Below are positions 11,114 to 59,747 of a DNA stretch of 64,000 nucleotides, in pieces. Source of the DNA: Pontederia crassipes (taxonomy: Eukaryota > Streptophyta > Magnoliopsida > Commelinales > Pontederiaceae); the NCBI GenBank assembly GCA_030549335.1, contig CM060191.1, forward strand, positions 60,771,947 to 60,835,946, in the 5' to 3' direction. A program made the position numbers and the translations under genes. Under the pieces are notes generated by a model that worked only from the letters and a program-made list of their open reading frames with translations, was not told where the DNA came from and did not search any database. How positions within the stretch are numbered: the first letter of the stretch is position 1; each line of letters begins with the position of its first letter.

Positions 11114-14110
11114 GTCTTCAACGCCCTCATCGACACGGGAGCATTGGAGTTGTTCGTATCAGAAGTGGCCGCCAAGAAGCTGAAGCTGCCACTACAAAAG
11201 ACTAATGCCACATTCAAGATGGTGAACGCGAAGTCTATCTCGACCACAGGAATTTCTCCTGGAGTGAAGGTTCGCATCGGCAAGTGGTCGGAAAGCTTCG
11301 ACGTGACGGTGGCACTGGTGGACGACTACGAAGTGGTGGCAGGCATTTCTTTTCTGTGACACATTGCTGCATGTGTCATCCCGCTCACCAACTCAATGGT
11401 CATCTTCGACCCCAAGGGACCCTACAACGTTCTCGTGAGGTCAGGAGGTGATCTCAAGCAAAAGACCCTCTCCGCCATGCAAGTGATGAAGGAGTTGCGC
11501 AGACAGGAGCACACCTTCCTGGCGACCGCCATATTGGAAGATCTGGGGCCCTCCACTCCAACACCTCCCAAAGTCCTTAAAACTCTTGAGGACTTTGCGG
11601 ACGTCATGCTCCCGGAACTCCCAAAGCGATTGCCTCCGAAGAGTGAAGTGGACCATGTCATCGACTCGGTCCCAGGATCGAAGCCCCCTCATGGAGTCCC
11701 TTATCGGCTGGCCCCTCCGGAACTCGCAGAACTCCGTAAGTAACTCACCGAACTATTGGATGCAGGATATGTTCGGCCCTCAAAGTCTCTATATGGCACC
11801 CCGGTTCTCTTCCAGAAGAAGCATGATAGATCCCTCTGGATGTAAATCGACTATCGGACGCTCAACAAGCTTACGGTGAAGAATAAGTACCCCATCCCCT
11901 TGGTGGCAGACTTATTCGACCAACTTGGCGGTGCAAGATGATTTACCAAGTTGGATCTTCGTTCGGGCTATTGGCAAGTTTGAATCGCGGAAGATGATGT
12001 GTAGAAGACGGCGTGTGTCACAAGATATGGCTCCTACGAGTTCCTCATGATGCCTTTCGGCCTCATCAACGCCCCAGCAACTTTCTGCACTCTCATGAAC
12101 AAGGTATTGCAACCATTCCTTGACAAGTTCGTGGTTGTGTACCTCGACGACATTATGATCTACAGCCGCACCTTGGAGGAGCATATCGAGCACATTCGGC
12201 AAGTGTTCGAGGTGTTGCGGCAGAACGAGCTCTACGTCAAGCGGGAGAAGTGTGCCTTCGTCCAACCGGAAGTGCACTTCTTGGGACATGTCGTCGGATG
12301 TGACAAGCTGAAGACGGATGGCGCGAAGATTCGGGCCATCATGGAATGGGAGCCGTCCAGGCGGGTTCCCGACATGCGTTCGTTCCTTGGCCCGACGAAC
12401 TACTATAGGCGGTTTGTCAAGGGATATTCACATGTGACGACCCCTTTGACGAATCTCCTCCGGAAGAATGTGAAGTGGGAGTGGACGCCAACATGCCAGG
12501 AAGCGTTCGACACCCTCAAAAGGGCCATGACGGAGGAACCGGTGCTCGTCCTGCCAGACCACACTAAGCCCTACGAGGTACAGACAGATGCTTCTGACTA
12601 TGCCATTGGAGGAGTTCTTATGCAGGAGGGGCATCCCGTGGCGTTCGAGAGTCGAAAACTCAACGACACGGAGCGGCGCTACGCCGTTCAAGAGAAGGGA
12701 ATGACCGCGGTGATCCACTGCCTTAGGACATGGCAGCACTACCTTCTCGGGTCACGATTTCACATCAAGACGGACAACGTCGCGACAAGTTACTTCGAGA
12801 CGCAGAAGAAGCTCTCGCCGAAGCAAGCAAGATGGCAAGATTTTATGGTGGAGTTCGACTACGTTCTGGAGTACAAGCATGACAAGACGAATGTTATTAT
12901 CGACGCCCTCAGCCGACACGCGGAATTGACGGTCATGAGCTCCTCTCAAGCCGACATGGTCGAGAGGATCAAGAAGGGACTGGAGTCGGATCCCACAACA
13001 AAGAATCTGTTTGAGCAAGCAAAGGAAGGAAAGACACACCGCTTTTGGGTGGAAGATGGGCTGATCTTCACCAAGGAACGTCGCATCTACGTTCCTCTGC
13101 TCGACAACTTGCGGCACACTATCATGCAGGAGTGTCATGACTCCAAGTGAGCGGGACATCCGGGCATCCGCCGCACTTTGGCACTAATCTAAGATAACTA
13201 CTTCTGGCCAAGGATGGAGGATGATATTGAAGCTTTCGTGAAGACATGCGTTGTTTGCCAGCAAGACAAAAATCTCAGTCAAGCGCCCAGCGGACTTCTG
13301 GAACCCCTGCCTATTCCAGAGCGACCATGGAAAGATGTTTCCATAGACTTCATCACAGGCCTGCCCAAGTCTGAAGGGGCGGGTACCATCATGGTGGTCG
13401 TCGATCGGTTTTCTAAGTATGCCATCTTCGCCGCCGGCTGCGCAAGTTGTCCTGCTACTGAAACTGCAGAGTTATTCATGAAGCATGCAGTGAAGTATTG
13501 GGGCTTGCCACAAAGCATTATCAACGATCGGGATGGTCAATTCGTTAGCAACTTCTGGAAGAAATTGTTCAAGATGATGGGCTCCAACCTGCATTTCTCG
13601 ACAGCACTTCATCCTCAAACCGACGGCCAAACTGAGAGGGTGAAGTGTATCTTAGAAATCTACTTACGGTACTATGTGAGTGCCAATCAGAAGGACTGAG
13701 CAAAGCTACTCGACATCGCACAATTTTTCTACAACTTGCAGCGGAGTGAGTCGACTAATCGGAGTCCCTTCGAGATAATGATGGGGCAGCAACCTCTGAC
13801 GCTCCAAGCCATCGCCACATCATATGGTGGCAAAGTCCCCGCCGCTCACCGCATGACGAAGGAATGGCATGAGTAGAACGACATGGCGAGAGCATGTTTG
13901 CACAAGGCATCAAAGCGTATGAAGAAGTGGGTGGACACCGTCCGACGGGACGTCAACTTTAAAGTCAGAGACTTGGTTCTTGTGAAGCTGGTCCAACATC
14001 TTCGACTAAGTGGGATGAATCTGCACAAGGGCCTTGTTAGGCGTTACGAGGGCCCCTTCAAGATCCTGAAGAAGGTAGGCAAGGTGGCCTATAAGTTGGA
14101 GCTACCGCCC
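11114..14110 (+). pseudogene. pol remnant: protease, RT, RNase H, integrase
   Basis: The aspartic protease motif D-T-G lies at 11132-11140. Reverse transcriptase spans about 11660-12460, with the catalytic YLDD at 12140-12151. RNase H follows at about 12560-12920 (QTDAS at its start). Integrase has an N-terminal zinc-binding part ending in CVVCQ near 13255 and a core with Asp near 13346, Asp near 13526 and Glu near 13634 (TDGQTERV). All are in frame 2. Stops near 11111, 11357, 11741, 11843, 11939, 11981, 12002, 13148, 13697 and 13874 inactivate it. Confidence 0.92.
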
Positions 14111-14406
14111 AGATGCAACAACACCCCGTCTTCCATGTCAGCCTGCTCAAGCCTTTCATTGAAGACCCTGAAAATCCCGAACGTGGGGTTTCAGACCGCG
14201 CCCCGCCGGCCATCCGTCAGCAGTTTACTAATCAAGTTGAAGAAGTACTCGCCGTCCGCACGAAGAATCGGAAGAAGGAGTATCTTATTCGATGGAGCGG
14301 AAGACCGGACGCCGACACGAGTTGGGAGAGAGCGGAAGACCTGTGGCAGTTCAAGCAGAAGATTGAAGAATTCCAAGCTGCAGCTTCAGGGACGTCGCTG
14401 ATTTGA
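14111..14406 (+). pseudogene. Integrase C-terminal chromodomain
   Basis: In frame 1, after a shift from the pol frame near 14110, the translation begins HPVFHVSLLKPF, the usual lead-in to the chromodomain. The chromodomain itself (VEEVLAVRTK, EYLIRWSGRPDADTSWE) lies at about 14236-14385. In chromoviruses this module directs integration to particular chromatin. The stop TGA sits just before the polypurine tract. Confidence 0.9.
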
Positions 14407-21475: not shown

Positions 21476-21878
21476 CTAATATTAATCTTTGGAGTTGGTC
21501 AAAAGGATATCGTTTTGATCACTCACCCCGATTTTGAATTAATTAGAATTGCGTTAGAGGCCTCGTATAGACTCAAACTTCATCAAAAAAAAAAAATCAA
21601 GAGGCTTCCGATTCCACATCTATCATTATTATTTAACAGTTTCCTCCATTCCTCTCGAGTTCAGTCTCGAAATTATTATTGTTGGAAGATAATTTTTTTT
21701 ACTAAATATATGCTTTTGAAGATGTAAAACCAATTAATTATAACCTCATTCTTCGGCTTTTTTATTTAGCAAGTCCTTTCGATTTTAGATTATTATGTGT
21801 GAAAAAGGGAAATATTTTTTTCGTTTTTATTTATTTTATTATACGTGTAAAATAATAGAAATAACAAGTCATGTTGAA
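21476..21878. other. Upstream region of the PPR gene
   Basis: AT-rich DNA expected to hold the promoter and 5' UTR of the PPR gene. A TATA box could not be assigned with confidence. Confidence 0.4.
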
Positions 21879-23492
21879 ATGAGAGAGGTAACAGCAGCAA
21901 GCAGAATAGAGGAAATGAGAGATGGCAGTCTCCGCCGCCTCCTAGGGACACCAATTTCCCGCTACATTCAAAACTCCTCCTCCTCCTCCTCCCCCCCTCT
22001 GAAACCCAACTCAAACTCCATTGCTGCTTTCCTTCAGCTCTTCATTGATTCCGATTCGCCTTCCAAAGGCCGATCGCTCCACGCCGATCTCATCAAGGCC
22101 GGCACCCGATGCAACACAAATATTTCCATCAAGCTCCTCATTCTACACCTCAAATGCGGGTCCATCGCCAACGCGCGTCACGTGTTCGACCGGATGCCAA
22201 AGCCGACGCTCTCGGCTTTCAACTACATGATCGCCGGGTACTTCAAACGAGGTTCGGCCGAGAAGTCGCTGGACCTCGTCCGGAAGCTAACGTTTTCCGA
22301 CGGGAGGGCGGACGGGTTCACCTTGTCGATGGTCCTCAAGATCTCCGTGATGTTAACTTCGTTGGACGTCGCGCGGCAGGCGCATGCTCAGATCATCAGA
22401 CTCGGCTTTTACTCCGATGACGTGGTCCTTGCTGCTTTGATCGATTCTTACGTGAAGAACGAGAAGCTGGGATATGCAAAAGGTGTGTTCGATGCAATGC
22501 CTGAGAGGAATCTGATATGTTCCACTGCGTTGATTGTTGGCTATCTGAATCATGGGGCAACTGGTGACGCTGAGGAAGTATTCAGGAGCTTGAAAGAAAA
22601 GGATATAGTGGTGTTCAACGCTATGATCGAAGGGTACAGCAAGACGATAGATACTGCAGGGAGCTCCCTTCAAGTGTATAAGAACATGCAAATGGTCGGT
22701 TTCCGGCCGACACTTTCTACTTTTGTCAGCGTGATTGGAGCTTGCTCTCTTTTATCGGTGATGGAATTTGGGCAACAAGTCCATGCACAGATGATGAAGC
22801 TTGACCTGTCATCTGATGTGAAATCGGGCAGCGCACTCGTGGACATGTACTCAAAGTGTGGAAAGGTCGACGAAGCGAGGCAGGCATTCAATCGCATGCC
22901 GGAGCGCAATGTTATATCTTGGACTTCTATGATCGACGGATACGGCAAGAACGGAATGCCAAACAAGGCAATTGATCTTTTTTACCAAATGAAGCTAAGC
23001 CAAAACATTAGGCCCAATCATGCTACGTTTCTAAGTGCTTTATCAGCTTGTGCACATGCGGGTTTGGTGTCTGCAGGCAGAGAGATTTTTGAGAGCATGG
23101 AGAAGGATTTCTTGCTCGCGCCGAGGATGGAGCATTACGCTTGCATGGTCGATCTGCTGGGACGTTGTGGATTCTTGAAGGAAGCACATGATTTTGTAAG
23201 GCGGATCCCTGGCAAGCCAAACTCCGACGTATGGACAGCGTTGCTTGGTGCATCAAGGCTTCACGGCAATTTGGAGATTGCAGACATTGCGGCAAAGGAG
23301 GTATTCAATATGAGGGAATCAAGGCCAGGGGCATACATGGCGCTGTCCAATGCATTTGCGTCCGTGGAGAAGTGGCAGGGCGTGGCAGAAGTGAGGCAGC
23401 TGATGAAACAGAGGGATGTGTCTAAAGATGTTGGTCGGAGTTGGATTGGGACAGATGAAGGTCCCTGTAATTTCCGTGCTTTGCAGAGGTGA
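21879..23492 (+). CDS. PLS-class pentatricopeptide repeat protein, At1g28690-like
   Basis: Intronless gene for an organelle RNA-binding PPR protein. The open frame reaches back to 21795, but the first 28 residues are unlike the family. ATGs at 21879 (537 aa) and 21915 (525 aa) fit better. After a Ser-rich presequence, tandem PPR motifs run from about residue 50 to the end, for example KPTLSAFNYMIAGYFKRG, RNLICSTALIVGYLNHG, KDIVVFNAMIEGYSKT, RNVISWTSMIDGYGKNG and the MEHYACMVDLLGRCG signature typical of the PLS-E type. There is an E-like C-terminal part but no DYW deaminase domain. The text resembles Arabidopsis At1g28690 (predicted mitochondrial, about 520 aa) as I recall it. The transcript target is unknown. 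It appears intact. Confidence 0.88.
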   Translation: MREVTAASRIEEMRDGSLRRLLGTPISRYIQNSSSSSSPPLKPNSNSIAAFLQLFIDSDSPSKGRSLHADLIKAGTRCNTNISIKLLILHLKCGSIANARHVFDRMPKPTLSAFNYMIAGYFKRGSAEKSLDLVRKLTFSDGRADGFTLSMVLKISVMLTSLDVARQAHAQIIRLGFYSDDVVLAALIDSYVKNEKLGYAKGVFDAMPERNLICSTALIVGYLNHGATGDAEEVFRSLKEKDIVVFNAMIEGYSKTIDTAGSSLQVYKNMQMVGFRPTLSTFVSVIGACSLLSVMEFGQQVHAQMMKLDLSSDVKSGSALVDMYSKCGKVDEARQAFNRMPERNVISWTSMIDGYGKNGMPNKAIDLFYQMKLSQNIRPNHATFLSALSACAHAGLVSAGREIFESMEKDFLLAPRMEHYACMVDLLGRCGFLKEAHDFVRRIPGKPNSDVWTALLGASRLHGNLEIADIAAKEVFNMRESRPGAYMALSNAFASVEKWQGVAEVRQLMKQRDVSKDVGRSWIGTDEGPCNFRALQR

Positions 23493-23993
23493 ATTCTGGT
23501 TCAGGCTTGCGTTCATCCAGAACAATGTTGCTGCCACTCCCTCGTTGTGAACTTGTTGCAGGAATCACTTTTAACTTAAGGAAGATTTTGTTGCAGCTTA
23601 GAATTATTAGCGTGGACTTGCTCAGGTTTTCATGAGGTGTGTTAAATGATCTTACCATGGGAGATATGTGTCGTTTGACCATTTGACCTTATCTCTACCC
23701 TTTCTGCATTCATCTCTCTTCCACAAGTTGGCAGTGTTGAAGGGCACAGTACAGAGTTGTAAACTTGTACGAGCCTTGTAGAACATATCCTTCTCGGAGG
23801 TGGGTGCGTGGTAAACTGGTACGGTGGTACCGCCGTCACAATAAAATGAGGCGAGGAAATATGCATAGTAATATCGTCTACCGAAATAAATAAAACAAAA
23901 ATACGGGAAAAGAAATCCAAATATGTGGCTGGATGAGCTCAGTGGTCTCCCATCAACCAAATCCCCCCCAACCCTATCTTCTTCTTCCACCCA
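23493..23993. other. PPR 3' end and petC upstream spacer
   Basis: About 500 bp with no further gene. It should hold the PPR 3' UTR and the proximal petC promoter. Short minus-strand ORFs have no recognisable similarity. Confidence 0.45.
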
Positions 23994-24005
23994 GATATAT
24001 ACAAA
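23994..24005 (+). promoter_or_regulatory. Probable TATA box of petC
   Basis: GATATATACAAA sits about 50-60 bp upstream of the petC start codon, a plausible place for a TATA box with a short leader. Confidence 0.55.
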
Positions 24006-24052
24006 CCCAGTTTCGTTCCTGTTCGTAGGCTAGAGGTTCCGATTCCATCCCC

Positions 24053-26856
<2,804 letters not shown>

Positions 26857-37424: not shown

Positions 37425-38743
37425 CTAAGGAATGAGGGAGAGAAAAGACAGAACTATAGACGATGAAAGAACAAGGATGAAGAGGGGAACGGTCGAATGG
37501 TGCGAGGAGGAGGATTCACCGCCGATGTGCTGGAACTGGAGGGAGTCGACAGCTAGGGGCATATTCTCTTGGTCCGGACTACATTTGTAGTTGGTTCCAT
37601 TGCGGGTGGCCGGGTGTGCACTGTACAGTATGGCACGCAGGACAGCCGACACTGTCGGAATGTACGCTGTTCTGTTCTTGGCTAGCAGCCAAGTCAGTCC
37701 CATCAGCTGGCAATCTCGCCGGAACATCCTCGTCCCTCTGTCATCTCCGGAATCGGCGCCACTTCCACCACCATCTTTAGGTGCCTTCAGCTGCGGTTAC
37801 CGAATCCATTAATTCTAATCATAAGCGGATTGTTGTCTGATAACTTTGTCCGAACTAGAACGATATATCATATCGATCAATGTAATAAATGATGCATATG
37901 CAGCTCTACAGTACTTCTGACTACATCATTCTAGTAAGCTAAATAATACCCTGAAGAGAATATGGTAAGAGACGATGATAGCAAGAAGCAAACCTTTTCC
38001 AGCGAGTGAAGGCACCGACTGCACCCAGCATAGGACGCATTCCGGCAGTCACGCTCCAGCTTCCGGACGGCGGCCGTCGGCGTGGCATTCCGGACGCCAC
38101 CGCTGCCGACAGTGGCCATGCTGATATTGAACGCCGCGGGGCAACGGAGAGACCCGAGTTGGTGGAGCCTGATGCCGCAGAAGCAGAGTACCGTGTCGCA
38201 GGTCGCATTGGGCTGCGGCAATCGTATGTCCCGCCGCGCCAGAGAGCTCTGTAGAGAGTCCACGCACCGCTGGTTGTCGTCCGGCATCATCGGCCCCGCG
38301 TCCTCGTCTGAGCCGGCCGGCGCCGATGGCCGGACTTCGAGGGCGGAGCGCGCGTGGGCGGCGAAGAGCCAGGCGGCAAGGACGGGACAGCAGCGCGAAC
38401 GGTCGAGGCCGCCGCGGACGCAGGCGTCGCCGACACCGCCGAAAAGCTCGTCGGAGAGGTCCAGCCGGCAGGCGGCGGTTTGGTTTGCGGCCTGGTCGAC
38501 GGGGATAGCCGGGACGGTGATGGGAATGGTCGTAACCGCCGGCGACGAAGGAGAACCGAAGTTTCCGGGGTTCAAGGGTTGCTGTTCATCGGAATAGTAA
38601 AGCTCAGGCAGGGCTGCCGCGGCTGAGCGGGACGTTAGAGAGGGCATACAGAGGAGGAAGAAGAGAGCAAGGTGTAACGCCGTCGTCGCGATAGTAGTTG
38701 GAGCGGCGGACGTGGTAGGAGCTGCAGCACTCGGCGGTGCCAT
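37425..38743 (-). CDS. SPARK-domain GPI-anchored protein, At4g28100-like
   Basis: Two exons on the minus strand, 38743-37994 and 37790-37425, joined in phase 0 by a GT-AG intron, encode about 371 aa. A hydrophobic N-terminal segment (ALHLALFFLLCMPSL) is a signal peptide. The SPARK domain is rich in spaced Cys: CRLDLSDELFGGVGDAC, SRCCPVLAAWLFAAHARSAL, PMMPDDNQRCVDSLQ, NATCDTVLCFCGIRLH and, in exon 2, RRDCQLMGLTWLLAKNRTAY. A hydrophobic C-terminal tail (VPLFILVLSSSIVLSFLSL) after a Ser-rich spacer predicts a GPI anchor. Several N-x-S/T sites are present. It resembles the uncharacterised Arabidopsis GPI-anchored protein At4g28100; the outer plasma membrane face is the expected site. Molecular function is unknown. 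The coding region is GC-rich relative to its surroundings and seems intact. Confidence 0.85.
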
Positions 38744-38871
38744 TCTTACGGTCTTGTTTATGGAAGAGGAAGAATGCCTCGTGTGTAAACAAAGATGACC
38801 CTCATTTGAAGCGGATGCTGCTTCTAACTTTTAGTACAAAGCGACACCTCATATTTTTCATTAAATAAAGC

Positions 38872-52624: not shown

Positions 52625-54538
52625 TATAACACCTCGAATTTCATCCCTAAATTGTCAATGACAATTAGGTCATTCGGTTGTGTTAACCCGTTCACCATCA
52701 CATAATCATAATAAAATATGATTTTCATCTATTACAGTGGAAGCATAAAGTCATAAATAAGATAAAATAATTCTTCAAAACATAGCGGAAGACTTCATGA
52801 AAACATCAAAAGTAATGTTATAAAATTGAAACACATCTAAACATCATCTCTACTAGCAATTAAAATATCTTTTTAAAAACATAGTCAAAAGACTCTAGAA
52901 CTTAATGACTCAACATCTCAGACTAGTTTGCAATCTTTATTGTCATGATCTGAACCATCATCCATCCATCATTATGCACTTACACGAATCTAGGATGCAG
53001 GGGTTTCCCTGATTAAAGTATGTAAAGACCATACATGCGATGCTATGATCCTATACAGGATACTACATGATATGCATCATCATCTTTATATAAAAAAGTA
53101 AACAATATGCATGTCATGCATTAACATATGAACTACATGTCACTCATTCATTCATTTCTATCATCATAAGATAAGTAAAAGCATAGAAAGACATGTAATC
53201 ATTTTCATCATACTTTCAGTATGGACAATCATAACCATCATCAATTCAATCCATAGATACATAAGTGAAATGCACTTACCATAACCATCGCCTCCATAAC
53301 TTTCCTCAAGGTGATTTATAGCCATTTGGACTTCCACTTTCATGGGACATCATTCCATTCCATCGATCATTGTTCCATTCCATCGATCATTGGCCCTTTC
53401 ATTTAAATTATATCTTTCGATAGTTGGGATTTATGTTGTTTCCCTCTCAATAGGCTAGCTAAGCCATGAAGACAATGCTCCCACGTAACACTCGAAGGTG
53501 ACATCAAAATACACACCATTGTTGATATATATAACAATCATTCTGGACTCTCGTCCGAAGGCAACATCGGAATGACACACCGTTGTCAATGTGTGTAACG
53601 ATCATTCCGAACAATATCCGATAAAGGACCATAGAGAGTCTACATGTAACATCATCCATAATTGGATTCATTATGCTATACAATCAACAAACATTTACGT
53701 CTCTCAATTTTCATATTTTAATCTAGTTATGTGGAAACATGCATATACGTGTATCTAGGTTCTTATACAACCAACAAGCATCAATGCATACTATTAATAC
53801 TTTGAAAATAACATTTTAACTATCATATACAACTTCTATTGATGGTCACGACCATGCAGAACTCCATAAAAAAACTCCTTCTGTCACGGCTGTGCCCAGA
53901 TGCAGTCACGATCGTGCTGGGTCATTGTCACGGCCATGACATTATTCGTCACGGGCACCGATTTTGGGCGTTCTTCAGCCATTTTGTCACGTGCGTGACG
54001 GGATGCATCACAACTATGATTGAACTCTGAAGTTCCGTCGCTCAGCCTGATTTTACATATTTTTATCCAAAAATTGGGGGAAATGATTTATAATATTCAG
54101 ATTCAAAACATATGGATTTCCTAGGCATTCTAAGATCCAGGGTTCATTCCTAAATCATGAACAATAAGACAAGCATGAATCCTAAATATTAGATCTAATC
54201 ATAAAATCCTATACATGCATAGATCTAATGCTTTAAACAATAAACACCTTCATCACAATCCAATACAAGGAATCCACATGCTCTCAATCCAATCATGAAA
54301 AACCATTGAGAGAGGAAAGGGGTTTTGGATCCCCTCGATCTTGAATCTTTCTCCTCTTTCTTCCTCTTCTTCCTCCTCCTTGTTCTTCTCTTTCTCCTTC
54401 CTCAAGCCTTAGCTGCCGGGTGAGAAAATTTGACGAAAGAGATTAACAAGAGGCTTTGGGGCCTTTATATAGGGGAGAATCATGAAAGTTTGGACAAAAA
54501 GTTCAAATTGTCCTTTAATAAAAATCTGGGGTATTACA
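52625..54538 (-). mobile_element. Solo LTR, minus sense, near-perfect TSD
   Basis: Left edge TATAACACCTCGAATT (TG mutated to TA) and right edge CTGGGGTATTACA mirror the TGTAACACC...GGTATTACA ends of gypsy LTRs. The flanks ATCTC (52620-52624) and ATATC (54539-54543) differ by one base. A TATA box on the minus strand (CTATATAAAGG, near 54460-54470) shows the sense. Inside are a tandem CCATTCCATCGATCATTG duplication (53349-53395) and a roughly 70-bp imperfect duplication at 53490-53610. No coding domain. Confidence 0.8.
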
Positions 54539-54939
54539 ATATCTTTTTGTGTAAAATAGACTAGTGGCTTTTATTTAATGTATACACATATCTAGCATAT
54601 TTCTTTTGTGTATTGTATGTATACGCATATTTATACTTAATACATACACGTCTATAAAGGATAGCAATATTGAATGTATGGGCTTAGCCCAGTTGAAACG
54701 TTGTGTCCTTGGATATACTAAAAACAAGGAACTCTCAATTATTTCTATTATTCTTTCAATAAATGACCTAACATGTCAGTGTTTTGCAAACAAAAAGAGT
54801 CAAAATAAGGTCATGTTCTTGATCTTCTCCTCAATCCAAATGGAACCTATATTAGAGAACAAGACAATATCACTCTGTGGATAAAAGAAGTTATGAGTTT
54901 GACTCTAAGGAGAAATTATGTATCTTTTATCTTTAAATA
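54539..54939. other. Intergenic spacer
   Basis: About 400 bp of AT-rich DNA. A 92-codon open frame (54606-54884) has no recognisable similarity. Confidence 0.45.
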
Positions 54940-56461
54940 AGGGTTATTTTCATAAACCACCGCTAAACTATCATGATTTTTCATATCTAACATCAAATTA
55001 TGAACTTATTTTTTGGATCCCTAAACTATCCTGACTTTGTCACTTTAATCCTTACGTCCACTTCTATTATATTTTTTTGTTATTTTTGCTTCTTATGAAA
55101 ATACTAAATTACCACTCATCATATAACACATAAAAATAAAAAAAGAAAAGAAAAGAGGGGGATCCATCTACGCTAAAGGTCGTAGAGGGGCGACCCCCGC
55201 CCCTCTTTCTTTGCGTGTGCACCAGCGTGCGCAGGAAAGAGCCGCCTTGCCCCCCTCTATGAGAACAAAGTGCAATTCAGTCGTGATTGGAAGTTTTGGA
55301 TGGATGATTTTTGCAATTAGTACCGAGGATCCGGGCGGTCTGGCAGAGGCGTTGGCTTCCCGATGATGGATAAGAGGAATTCGACAGCGATGTTTGGGAT
55401 GCCGGAGGAAGACGGCGGCGTCGACGAGCTGCTGGCAGCTCTTGGATACAAGGTCTGGGCGTCTGACATGGTGGATGTTGCGTAGAATCTTGAGCAGCTG
55501 GAGATGGTCTTCGACGGGACTATTGCGGCCTGCTGCCAATGACGTTGCGTCCATTTTTTTCCGCCTCACATCTGACACCATCCACTACAATCCTTCTGAC
55601 CTCTCTATGTGGCTCGATAGCATACTGCCGGACATTAACGTGCCTCTATCGCCTCTAGCCGCGATAGCCTCTCAGAGCCATCATTTCCCTAGTCGGACAT
55701 CGTTCCCCCCGGGATCGAAAATGGATGTGGATGTCTGATACATCGACAACGACGACAACTTGTTCTTCGTCGTCCTCTTCGTCCATAGGAGGAGTCACCG
55801 AAAGAATGTTGAGATCGTCAACGACAATAGGGATGGCATCGATCTCCAAGACGTCATCTCCTCCGCCGATGATGCCAGTTGCGGTAGTGGACTCACAGGA
55901 GGCTGCAATCCGGCTTGTGCACGTGCATGGCCTGCACCGAGGCAGAGAAACAAGAGAACATCAAGGCAGAGGATGCCCTTGTAAAGCAGATAATGGTTCT
56001 GGCTGCTTCGTAGGGAGACGTCATGCATAAGGTCGCGGGATACTTTGTCGAGGTGCTCGTGTGCAAGAAAGAGGGGGATCGCCTCTTTGCGCTCCCCTAC
56101 GCGCACGTAGGAAAGAGGGCCCCCTCCCCCTTTCTTTACGCATGTGCCGGTGCGCGCATAGAGAAGAGTAGGGTGGCGACCCCGAGTGCACCGGCGTGCG
56201 CCCCTGTGCCACAGGAAAGAGAGGGGGACCTCCCTTCCGGTGACTTTCCGGCAAAGAGCTTGCTGACGACAGACAAGGAGAGATGAGGATGAAGGGTAAT
56301 TTCAACTTTTCATAAATGGAAAAAAAATGAAGTTAACATACAATGTAACAGAAGTGGACCGAAGGGTGGAAAAGTCGCGATAGTTTAGGGATCCAAAAAA
56401 ATAATTTCGTAGTTTGATGATAGATGTGGAAAATTGCTAGGGATGGTTTACGAAAATAATC
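54940..56461 (+). mobile_element. Pack-MULE carrying a DELLA gene fragment
   Basis: Roughly the first 150 bases are an inverted copy of the last 150: both contain GGATCCCTAAACTATC and GGTCCACTTCT/CGTCCACTTCT blocks in mirror order, and outer ends with TTATTTTC(A/G)TAAACCA. The 9-bp flanks CTTTAAATA (54931-54939) and TTTTAAATA (56462-56470) differ by one base, the duplication size of Mutator elements. There is no transposase. The core carries broken DELLA sequence bounded by GC-rich GGGGGATCGCC-type DNA at 55150-55260 and 56060-56225. Confidence 0.88.
55366..56060 (+). pseudogene. Captured DELLA (GRAS family) N-terminal fragment
   Basis: DELLA proteins are nuclear repressors of gibberellin signalling. 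This fragment starts with ATG at 55366 and contains the signature DELLAALGYKV (from 55423), NLEQLEM, then TIHYNPSDLSMWLDSIL (from 55577), a Ser/Thr-rich linker, VVDSQEAAIRLVH (near 55890) and the start of the GRAS leucine heptad region (MACTEAEKQENIKAEDALVKQ, in part, from 55927; HKVAGYFVEV). The order is that of GAI/RGA/SLR1. Frames change three times, and stops follow DVA and LAAS, so it cannot make a normal DELLA. VHIID and later GRAS motifs are absent. Open frames on the opposite strand are shadows. Confidence 0.9.
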
Positions 56462-56470
56462 TTTTAAATA

Positions 56471-56838
56471 ATTGTTTTATTTCTTGCATTAGTGCCCTAG
56501 GTCTAAGAAAACTTTTTTGAATAAATTTTATCAACATTTGTTTTAATCTTTTATCAACCTATTTTTTTGTTTCTATCTAAAGGTTTCAAATTTTTAATTA
56601 AAATTAGAGCACTAAATATTGATTCAACGGTTTAATGTGTATAATTGAATATTAAGTCACAAATTTAATATTTTTTACTTTTTTCCATAAAATTATTATG
56701 TTATTTTAAATCAATATGAATTTAACATTTATTGATTTTTTTTATAACAACAAAGTTACATAGAGTAAACTATAATCATATTAGTTTTAAATTTTTTTAG
56801 CGTAAAAAGATTGTGACAAGTTATTCACTTATACATGT
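56471..56838. other. AT-rich spacer
   Basis: Non-coding DNA between the Pack-MULE and the next LTR. Nothing recognisable. Confidence 0.45.
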
Positions 56839-59747
56839 TGTAATATTCCTACTTCTAACATATATGATTAAATTTGTTAATGTTATATTATGTGATGGTT
56901 TCATTGTATACATTCAAGAGAAAGGTCTCATTTAAGCAAGGGGAGTAGAGAAGGTGACAAAATTTGTCTAATTCATGAAAAGATGATTTTTGAAAATGTT
57001 AGAATTAAAAAAATTAAAGTTCCGATAATTGTTTCCTTATGTTAATGTATGATAAATATGATTTTTAATAATTTTTAGATAAAGTCTTTGTTAGGTTAAA
57101 TTATAGCGCAAAATTGAAAATTTTGAAAAAAATTATCAATTTTGTTCTTCGGACAAAAATTGAGTTTTGATTCCTTCATAATATATTTTATTTGAATCCA
57201 AATGGGGGTGGTTTCTTATTTACATGTAATTTCTTAAGTAAATGAATAAATAAAAAAAATGATAAGTCATTTACTTAAATGATACTTTTGTATATAAGGA
57301 GAACTTCAAGGGCACTTTGGAGATTTTTTCTACAACCGATTTTAGGTCAGTATTCTTACTATATAAGAAAGCAATACTTATCTTTATCACCTGGACACTT
57401 GCCCTAAACACATGAAACTCAGCTGAAGAGGGCAACAAGAGAAGGAAACAAAAACAAACGGGAAAAAGAGAGATTTCAACAACAAATCAAGGGCATCCTC
57501 AGAATTTCATCCAAGCAAGTTAAAAGCTCCTCTCCTATGAATTATGCATATGAAATTGGATTAAAACAAGTCTTCTCTAATCTCTGTTAGTTTTTCCTCA
57601 TCTCCTCTTTCACATGATTGAGAAAGAGTGAGTTCTAAGATGAAGGACGAACCTTAGCTTGGCTAAAATTTGAAACTATCAATATTAAATTTTCTTCTCA
57701 TACCTTCTGTGCCTCAAAAAATTATGAAATTAAATCTGAAATACTCAAAGTTTATAGTTCGCCTTTGGAATTTGATTGATTGGGTACCTATACAAGAAGT
57801 TATGTATGAAACCCTATGGGTCACTCTAGTTGTTCTAGAAAGTACATAGACTGAAATGATAATTCGACCATAAATTTCACATTTAAGGTTTTATGTTGTA
57901 ATTTAAGGAATATCAATATATGTTTGTAAAAGTTCTAGAGCAATTGGAATCATGAAAACAGTACGTGTACTAGGAATATAATTTTTATAATGCATAAATC
58001 ATAGTCGGCCCGTTTCAAAAGTATGACAGAACATCTTCAATATCTAGAAATTTTTGTAGAATAATATAGAATGAGAAAAATTATAAGATTGATACTAATT
58101 AAAGCTCAAGAAGTCTAATTTTGTTAAAATTTTAACTCCATGTGACAGAATGTACATCCAAAAAGTTATGAATTACAGTCAAGGTTCTAAAGTGAAGCAG
58201 AATATATGTTAATTCTATAATTTTCTAAGGTCATTTCATAATGAGTTCATGAGTTTTATGTTGATTATAGGTGATGAAGTCTTTTGTCACTAAAAATTAG
58301 TTTCACATCCATAGGAGTTATACACCAATTGTTATATATTTTATATTGTACATTGTGCAATCCGTTGTGTGTCAAATAAAAACAAAGTGTTTGTGCTTAT
58401 GCGACCATATGATGTGTGAATTTAGAAATTGATTAATGGTTTTATTTGATTACATGATACATGAAATTATATGTTATATGAATGGGTGCTATGTGTACAC
58501 GTATATTGTATTAATTGTTATGTGTGCAACTATTTATTACAAGAGATAATATAATATGACATGACATGATACGAAATGATATGATTTCACTTGACAAGTC
58601 AGGTAATATGATATAATAAGATAGGACATGACATAATATGATTGTGTCATGCATTTGCATCTCATTATCATGCATTTGCATTACTCCGATCGGACGACAG
58701 TTTACTCTTGTATAGTTGAAAGACTTGCAAGATCGACAGTTGACCCTTGTATAGTCGAAAGATTTGCAAATAGGACAGTTTACCCTTGCATGTTTGAAAA
58801 ATCGTATAAGGTCGACAACTTACCCCTATTTAGTTGAAACACTTTATAGGGCGACAAATATCCCATAGGGATTTTAGGTGGTTTGAAGTTAAGTGCCATG
58901 TGAATCGAATTGTGGAATTACACCCATCGTTTGTATACACAGGAGCCACGTCTAGAATCCATCAACTTCCTCGACAAGGTCGATAGATATTTCGAAAGGG
59001 ATGTCTTTGGCCATATAGTGATATGGCATGTACAAACATACATGATTTATACATCCATACATTCATGGTTTGTGCATTGATGTCTCATTCTTATGTATGA
59101 TATGATGATTGTACTTTTGACATGACCTATAGATGTTTTTCATATGACATGACCTATAGATGTTTTTCATATCATGTGACATGATAAAGTTTTGAATTAT
59201 TTATAACTTATTGTTATATAAAATATGCTAAAATAAAATAGTAATACTTTTCAAGTATGAAGAAATAATATTAATATTACTTTACTCAAATGGAATATGT
59301 GATAACACATAGGTTATGAATTTTTGACTTAGTGAGCTGTGGTTTGCTTATATTGTTACTCTTAATATTTTTCAATCAGTAAACTAGTCTGTGATTGTGC
59401 TTGGTGATCTTTTGTCAGGATTGGAAGCACTTTTGATGAGAGGCATATATGGGCCTTAGGTCTTTTAAATTCCTTTGAGAGGATTAAAGAGAAGTGTTTT
59501 GAATGTGTATTATTAGACAAAAATAAATATAGTTTCATTTTAATATGTGATAATGTTTTTGTATAAGTACATAGTGTTTATAATGTTTACTTATTTTAAA
59601 TTATATAATATCATATGGTGTGGTTTGGATACTTTAATTATTGTATCTTATAAATAAATTATAACACGCTTTCGTAAACTATATAAGATTACATGTATCA
59701 GATTGTGACCTTTAAGTTAAATCATGGTTTAAATTGGAGTCCTGACA
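56839..59747 (+). mobile_element. Solo LTR, family A copy 2
   Basis: Starts TGTAATATTCCTACTTC and ends TTGGAGTCCTGACA, parallel to 43109-47645. The flanks CATGT (56834-56838) and TATGT (59748-59752) differ by one base. A TATA-like GTATATAAGGAG near 57291 supports plus sense. No PBS or coding domain is seen. It carries its own tandem array at 58696-58858. Confidence 0.78.
58696..58858. repeat. Tandem repeat, period 39-40 bp, about four units
   Basis: Units beginning GACAG/GACAACTTACCC..., followed by a TAGTTGAAA block, start at about 58696, 58735, 58774 and 58814, with a partial fifth at 58853. A 62-codon plus-strand ORF here just translates the repeat. Confidence 0.8.

Follow-up and report, generated by a model that had tools for sequence, protein, structure and literature searches.

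The 64,000-nucleotide stretch of the Pontederia crassipes genome analyzed here (C9:60771947-60835946, from a genome of 1.13 Gb; hereinafter, the window) contains a non-autonomous Mutator-like element of 1,522 bp that carries part of a DELLA gene between terminal inverted repeats (TIRs). This focal element is very probably a member of a family, denoted A, that captured the 5' half of a DELLA gene, spread through the genome and decayed, and that now probably persists as silent passenger DNA. The original prediction of a Pack-MULE is borne out by the combination of the TIRs, a perfect target site duplication (TSD) and a DELLA gene fragment the intact parents of which are located elsewhere.

Structure of the focal element

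The element spans positions 54941-56462 of the window (Table 1) rather than 54940-56461, as initially proposed, and is flanked on both sides by the 9-bp TSD TTTAAATAA. The enclosing duplication was recognized correctly but described as near-perfect; in fact, its two copies are identical. An exact 9-mer repeat at the TSD spacing is found at 3 of 62,460 positions in the window. The TIRs are about 175 bp long. The two arms (54944-55120, 177 bp, and 56288-56459, 172 bp) align with 71.5% identity over 186 columns (E 1.8e-21), and the score of this pair, 91.5 bits, exceeds the scores of all 400 random arm pairs with the same span (maximum 59.0), in full agreement with the long inverted repeats noticed at the outset. 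This identity is below the 80% that one published TIR library uses, so that the element is either old or has imperfect arms.

The criteria for Pack-MULEs adopted here, in part taken from PMC3310237 and PMC4858842, include TIRs of 100-500 bp, a TSD of 9-11 bp, the absence of an own transposase, movement as a unit, and a gene fragment with a parent elsewhere. The lengths of the focal arms and TSD fall within these ranges, and the 1,522 bp are accounted for by TIRs, filler and DELLA DNA. No transposase was detected in the element, with PF12041 (DELLA) being the sole profile above the cut-off in a Pfam scan of 6 of the 33 open reading frames from 54500-57000.

Several other features of the window are worth mentioning. 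Just left of the element, parts of 52625-53814 and 54281-54538 are 68-78% similar to a stretch nested in one of the other copies (L017), in inverted order. Farther away, the regions 21789-24485, 37934-38830 and 12005-14398 contain two open frames, one of the PPR type (E-motif) and one with a SPARK domain, together with an exon for the PetC anchor and the remains of a retroelement that include reverse transcriptase and RNase H.

Table 1. Features of the focal element in window coordinates; gene positions refer to the donor with the A of ATG as +1
Feature	Position	Strand	Comment
Left TSD, TTTAAATAA	54932-54940	.	Identical to 56463-56471
Left TIR, family A	54941-55120	+	54944-55120 pairs with 56288-56459; matches TIRs of L011, L012, L013
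GC-rich filler, left TIR to captured DNA	55150-55261	.	Donor gene without match; similar filler in L011, L038
Captured 5'UTR, gene -92 to -24	55262-55330	+	85.5% identity to L010
Captured DELLA coding sequence, +10 to +374 (DELLA and TIHYNP motifs)	55325-55686	+	84.2% identity to L010; PF12041 matches
DELLA motif block, PF12041 positions 1-20	55423-55482	+	E 3.2e-6
TIHYNP motif block, PF12041 positions 38-66	55556-55642	+	E 3.4e-9; frame differs from that of the DELLA block
Junction of donor +374 and +591, 217 bp missing	55686-55687	+	Left break common to L011, L012, L013, L017
Captured DELLA coding sequence, +591 to +967	55686-56059	+	85.4% identity to L010; covers the initial 49 or so codons of the GRAS domain
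GC-rich filler and spacer, right side	56060-56287	.	
Right TIR, family A	56288-56462	-	Pairs with left arm; TIR comparison across loci
Right TSD, TTTAAATAA	56463-56471	.	Identical to 54932-54940

Captured sequence and donor genes

The captured DNA (55262-56059) comprises 798 bp of a DELLA gene, including 5'UTR and N-terminal codons; the capture was predicted correctly, but its extent, 55366-56060 or about 700 bp, was underestimated. The two PF12041 matches reach 27.4 and 36.9 bits, above the cut-off of 23.8, and the cargo is similar to the PDB chain 2zsh_B (GAI) with an E-value of 2.2e-5. Together with the alignment to L010, which resolves the cargo into donor segments -92 to -24, +10 to +374 and +591 to +967, these matches confirm that the DELLA motif, TIHYNP and the start of the GRAS domain follow in native order and that the capture ends before most of the GRAS core (in L010, the GRAS domain starts at residue 274). 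Names of motifs that go further than the Pfam and PDB annotations are general background or come from the original prediction.

Unlike a DELLA protein gene, the fragment has neither an open frame nor a full GRAS domain. The start codon of the donor lies within a 39-bp deletion of the focal copy, an in-frame TAG (55483-55485) directly follows the DELLA motif block, the fragment ends at codon 323 of the donor, and there are five frame-breaking indels and, in the parental frame, three stops, i.e., greater damage than the at least three indels and two stops first counted. Given this damage and the even distribution of substitutions over codon positions (see below), a protein function of the fragment, already considered doubtful at first reading, is very unlikely. 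The possibility that the 217-bp gap is a spliced intron was rejected because there is no GT-AG at its borders and the reading frame of the gene continues through it.

The genome encodes four intact DELLA proteins of 673-693 residues each, in two pairs: L009 (C10) and L010 (C9), and L014 (C14) and L015 (C13). L009 and L010, the two that were scanned against Pfam, contain full DELLA and GRAS domains, and the best protein matches to L010, including those from palms, are 68-70% identical. Alignment to these host genes, suggested along with the original prediction, gives 85% identity of the focal fragment to L009/L010 and 74-75% to L014/L015, and identifies the former pair as the donor lineage. The intact donor-type genes are located on other contigs or far away on C9.

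Two observations concern the genes themselves. The otherwise intact L009 (C10:70.867M) has DEMLAVLGYKV where L010 has DELLAALGYKV, so that the change falls in the name-giving motif of the family. In addition, L044 (C1:37.378M) and L045 (C2:0.24M) are open frames of 647 and 648 residues, respectively, with a DGLLA-type motif, and represent a third DELLA-like lineage.

A single capture that spread

Other DELLA fragments in the genome were collected with a near-whole-gene query (L010, -212 to +2022), which avoids the bias toward the captured region that affected an earlier search with the focal fragment; only the best candidates were considered, so that all counts are lower bounds. This search yields at least 36 matches: four to the DELLA genes, four to the DGLLA-type frames, and 28 others. 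The latter represent at least 16 fragment loci, of which six belong to family A, eight lie beside four other TIR types and two show no TIR.

The family-A cargo is present in at least six loci (the focal one, L011, L012, L013, L017 and L038), as expected of a Pack-MULE that moves as a unit. In five of the six, the donor sequence breaks at +374; it resumes at +591 in four of these and at about +697 in L012, although the support for the +374/+591 junction is thin in L013, with five aligned bases on the left side, and in L017, with about 13 on the right. The 3' end of the capture in the same five loci falls between +965 and +992. L038 is cut off before the +374 break and is assigned to the family by the tree and its TIR. 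TIRs of family A are found at all five other loci, not always at both ends, and those of L017 and L038 each match the focal TIRs in part. The family-A clade has aLRT/UFBoot support of 98.8/99 with five copies and 98.5/86 with six. On these junctions, TIRs and tree positions, the six loci are taken to be copies of one capture. Tree nodes that bear on whether this capture predates or postdates the split of L009 and L010 are weak.

The segments of C9 and C10 that harbor L013 and L017 (about 26 and 21 kb, respectively) are collinear, with 13 matching blocks of 71-97% identity in the same orientation. The two loci are therefore best read as one insertion copied together with its segment, which would make family A older than that duplication. 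Because of the shared orientation of L013 and L017, the notion of C9 and C10 as inverted homologues was rejected, and only a segment duplication is claimed.

Beyond the focal element, TSDs were sought at seven loci: L012 shows one mismatch in 9 positions, L016 and L020 show one in 10, L019 has a candidate only in A-rich sequence, and none was found at L021, L042 and L043.

Other captures of DELLA sequences

Family B (L016 and L019) has TIRs of its own. Family C (L018, L021 and L041) derives from the L014/L015 lineage (aLRT/UFBoot 99.7/100) and has a third TIR type, which flanks the L021 element on both sides but was seen on a single side of L018 and of L041. TIR type D is associated with donor positions +718 to +828 in L020 and +736 to +817 in L043, and type E with +606 to +752 in L042. 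In a comparison of 19 hand-picked TIR ends, a set that does not include those of L017 and L038, all pairs within families match (A, 10/10; B, 6/6; C, 6/6; D, 6/6; E, 1/1), and matches between families are confined to 7 of the 20 A-B pairs (54.5 bits or less) and one of the eight C-E pairs (31 bits). Types B to E are putatively attributed to MULEs by the length of their TIRs; no transposase was seen. In L042 (C11:54416800-54420800; element of about 1,028 bp), gene-like sequence flanks the DELLA piece, so that this element may be a chimera of several genes. Finally, L039 (C8) and L040 (C7) are strongly diverged fragments of the DELLA 5'UTR and start (-142 to +70) without visible TIRs, located in a duplicated segment (92% identity over 2.9 kb and 86% over 1.6 kb).

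The AU test rejects a common origin of A, B and C in one capture event (p=4e-10), and the separation of family C, with L014/L015 as donors, from both A and B can be considered firm. The relationship between A and B is less clear-cut. Under one alternative, the two families descend from the same capture, and the TIRs were later replaced or strongly diverged. The AU test does not reject a single clade of A and B (p 0.375), the weak TIR similarity between the two families would fit such a history, and some single substitutions are common to B and part of A. However, the TIRs differ; the 5' junctions differ as well, being CGAGG^TCGTCGG in B and extending further upstream in A, as seen in L012; B retains the 217 bp that A has lost; and in the substitution lists, no substitution is common to all present members of A and B and missing from L014/L015. 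With repeated hits at the same sites, some of the shared substitutions may be parallel, so that the grouping of families leans on junctions and TIRs. A common capture of A and B thus appears unlikely, albeit deserving of serious consideration, and the TIRs and junctions make the independence of family B likely where the tree is undecided. Altogether, two independent captures are firm, three are likely and five are possible.

All 28 fragment matches end at or before query position 1204, that is, donor +992 of the 2,031-bp coding region, with none beyond this point among the matches listed. GC content alone is insufficient to explain this 5' bias because the donor coding region is GC-rich over its full length (0.58-0.69 in 150-bp steps). 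With up to five MULE-like TIR types, apparently independent, and two DELLA lineages involved, it is fairly likely that, in this lineage, DELLA genes have a hot spot for capture in their N-terminal half.

Decay and methylation-like footprint of the copies

The copies decay neutrally. Substitutions in the focal fragment are evenly distributed over codon positions (28/32/40, p 0.24), compared with 40/23/89 for the gene L014 against L009/L010. The same evenness is observed in L011, L012, L013 and L017; L016 is borderline (0.07), and in L019 the distribution is uneven (0.03) but not skewed toward third positions.

The focal copy shows an excess of C-to-T changes at CG (43/195) and CHG (20/112) over CHH (12/186; Fisher p 1.6e-5 and 0.003), compared with p 0.46 and 0.75 in the gene control. 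The rates at CG and CHG exceed the CHH rate in all seven A and B copies counted, with Fisher p < 0.006 in all five that were tested (the focal copy, L011, L012, L016 and L019). In family C, L018 shows rates of 0.245 (CG) and 0.217 (CHG) versus 0.112 (CHH), and the numbers for L021 are small. Private changes pooled over 11 copies follow the same pattern (CG 106/1577, CHG 64/928, CHH 63/1677; p 1.4e-4 and 5.7e-4), but those of the focal copy alone (CG 16/197, CHG 1/111, CHH 8/185) are weak and partly contrary to a methylation reading. The observed/expected ratio of CpG is 1.14-1.21 in the donor genes versus 0.82-1.06 in the copies. These patterns suggest past cytosine methylation of the copies.

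The best explanation of these findings, which we consider very likely, involves a non-autonomous Mutator-like element with family-A TIRs that took up the 5'UTR and the N-terminal half of the coding sequence from a DELLA gene belonging to the L009/L010 lineage, with 217 bp lost inside the captured fragment. The element then spread by transposition, presumably with a MULE transposase acting in trans, to at least six loci including the focal one, and one insertion was later copied with its chromosome segment. Subsequently, the copies decayed without constraint, probably under cytosine methylation, leaving the focal element most likely an inactive, silent relic.

Possible effects on the DELLA genes

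A broader reading combines the capture hot spot with a methylation-checked reservoir of RNA that affects the gibberellin response; we consider this combination improbable. Its second component, namely that the copies are a lasting source of DELLA-like RNAs that methylation restrains and that could occasionally shift the gibberellin response, is unsupported.

A related scenario, in which transcription of the element or the set of copies from the TIRs gives rise to small RNAs that reduce DELLA expression in trans, appears very improbable. Exact 21-mers common to the focal element and a donor locus number 22 for L010 and 11 for L009 (seven and two exact 24-mers, respectively), which makes small-RNA targeting in trans possible in principle; none of the 21-mers of the element are shared with L014/L015. 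The focal counts cover both strands and flanks, those of the other copies only the sense CDS. Some of the other copies share more than the focal element does: for L016, there are 69 exact matches to the CDS of L009 and 43 to that of L010. Against L014, the numbers are 20 for L018 and 11 for L021. A precedent comes from maize, where captured genes are described (PMC13317346) as siRNA reservoirs able to affect their donors. At third codon positions, a small excess at CHG, which would be compatible with such an effect, is present in each of the two gene pairs (6/171 and 8/156); L009/L010 show no CG excess (5/395 versus 6/486 at CHH), however, and that of L014/L015 is slight (11/408 versus 8/489). 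Furthermore, an inverted-repeat scan of 54700-56700 detects the TIRs and short arms only, with no inverted DELLA arrangement. The methylation-like footprint, by which the copies look silenced, along with the CpG-rich donor genes that show little of it, argues against strong trans-silencing.

The possibility that the focal sequence is simply the remnant of a native DELLA gene or of a tandem copy, with which the native order and the presence of the 5'UTR would be consistent, can be dismissed for practical purposes, since the homology is not continuous with the flanks but stops at GC-rich filler inside TIRs bounded by a TSD, the intact genes are elsewhere, and the same portion of the gene is found again on other contigs.

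Relation to known elements and implications

The focal element resembles the Pack-MULEs of rice, maize and tomato in being non-autonomous, with long TIRs, a 9-bp TSD, a GC-rich fragment of a host gene and no visible transposase. It differs in its DELLA cargo and in TIRs more diverged than the library standard, and the genome differs in that pieces of one gene family are found in elements with several TIR types. The PM-ZIBP family of tomato is similar in that one captured fragment was amplified to several copies with different TSDs (PMC3310237). In part of Table 5 of that article, the outer TIRs of the PM-ZIBP elements are 87-95% identical and most of the elements have tandem TIRs, whereas the decay of the focal element is further advanced and its TIRs are single. 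Compared with DELLA proteins such as GAI and SLR1, which the cargo resembles in its DELLA domain and GRAS start, the cargo has a broken frame and lacks the start codon as well as the greater part of the GRAS domain. No report of a captured DELLA gene was found in the titles and opening lines of abstracts among the papers listed for Pack-MULEs with DELLA or GRAS, or for DELLA capture by Mutator-like transposons. The Pack-MULE itself is thus of an ordinary kind, the DELLA cargo appears to be new, and the repeated capture is the interesting part.

One published annotation pipeline (PMC8903248) rests on the assumption that it should be rare for different elements to capture the same sequence independently; a gene family taken up by elements with up to five TIR types is a candidate counter-example. 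This raises the question of whether capture is driven by a property of the donor, such as GC content, open chromatin or breakage, or by retention. Being highly conserved and determining plant stature, DELLA genes would also provide a stringent test of whether captured copies harm their donor via small RNAs.
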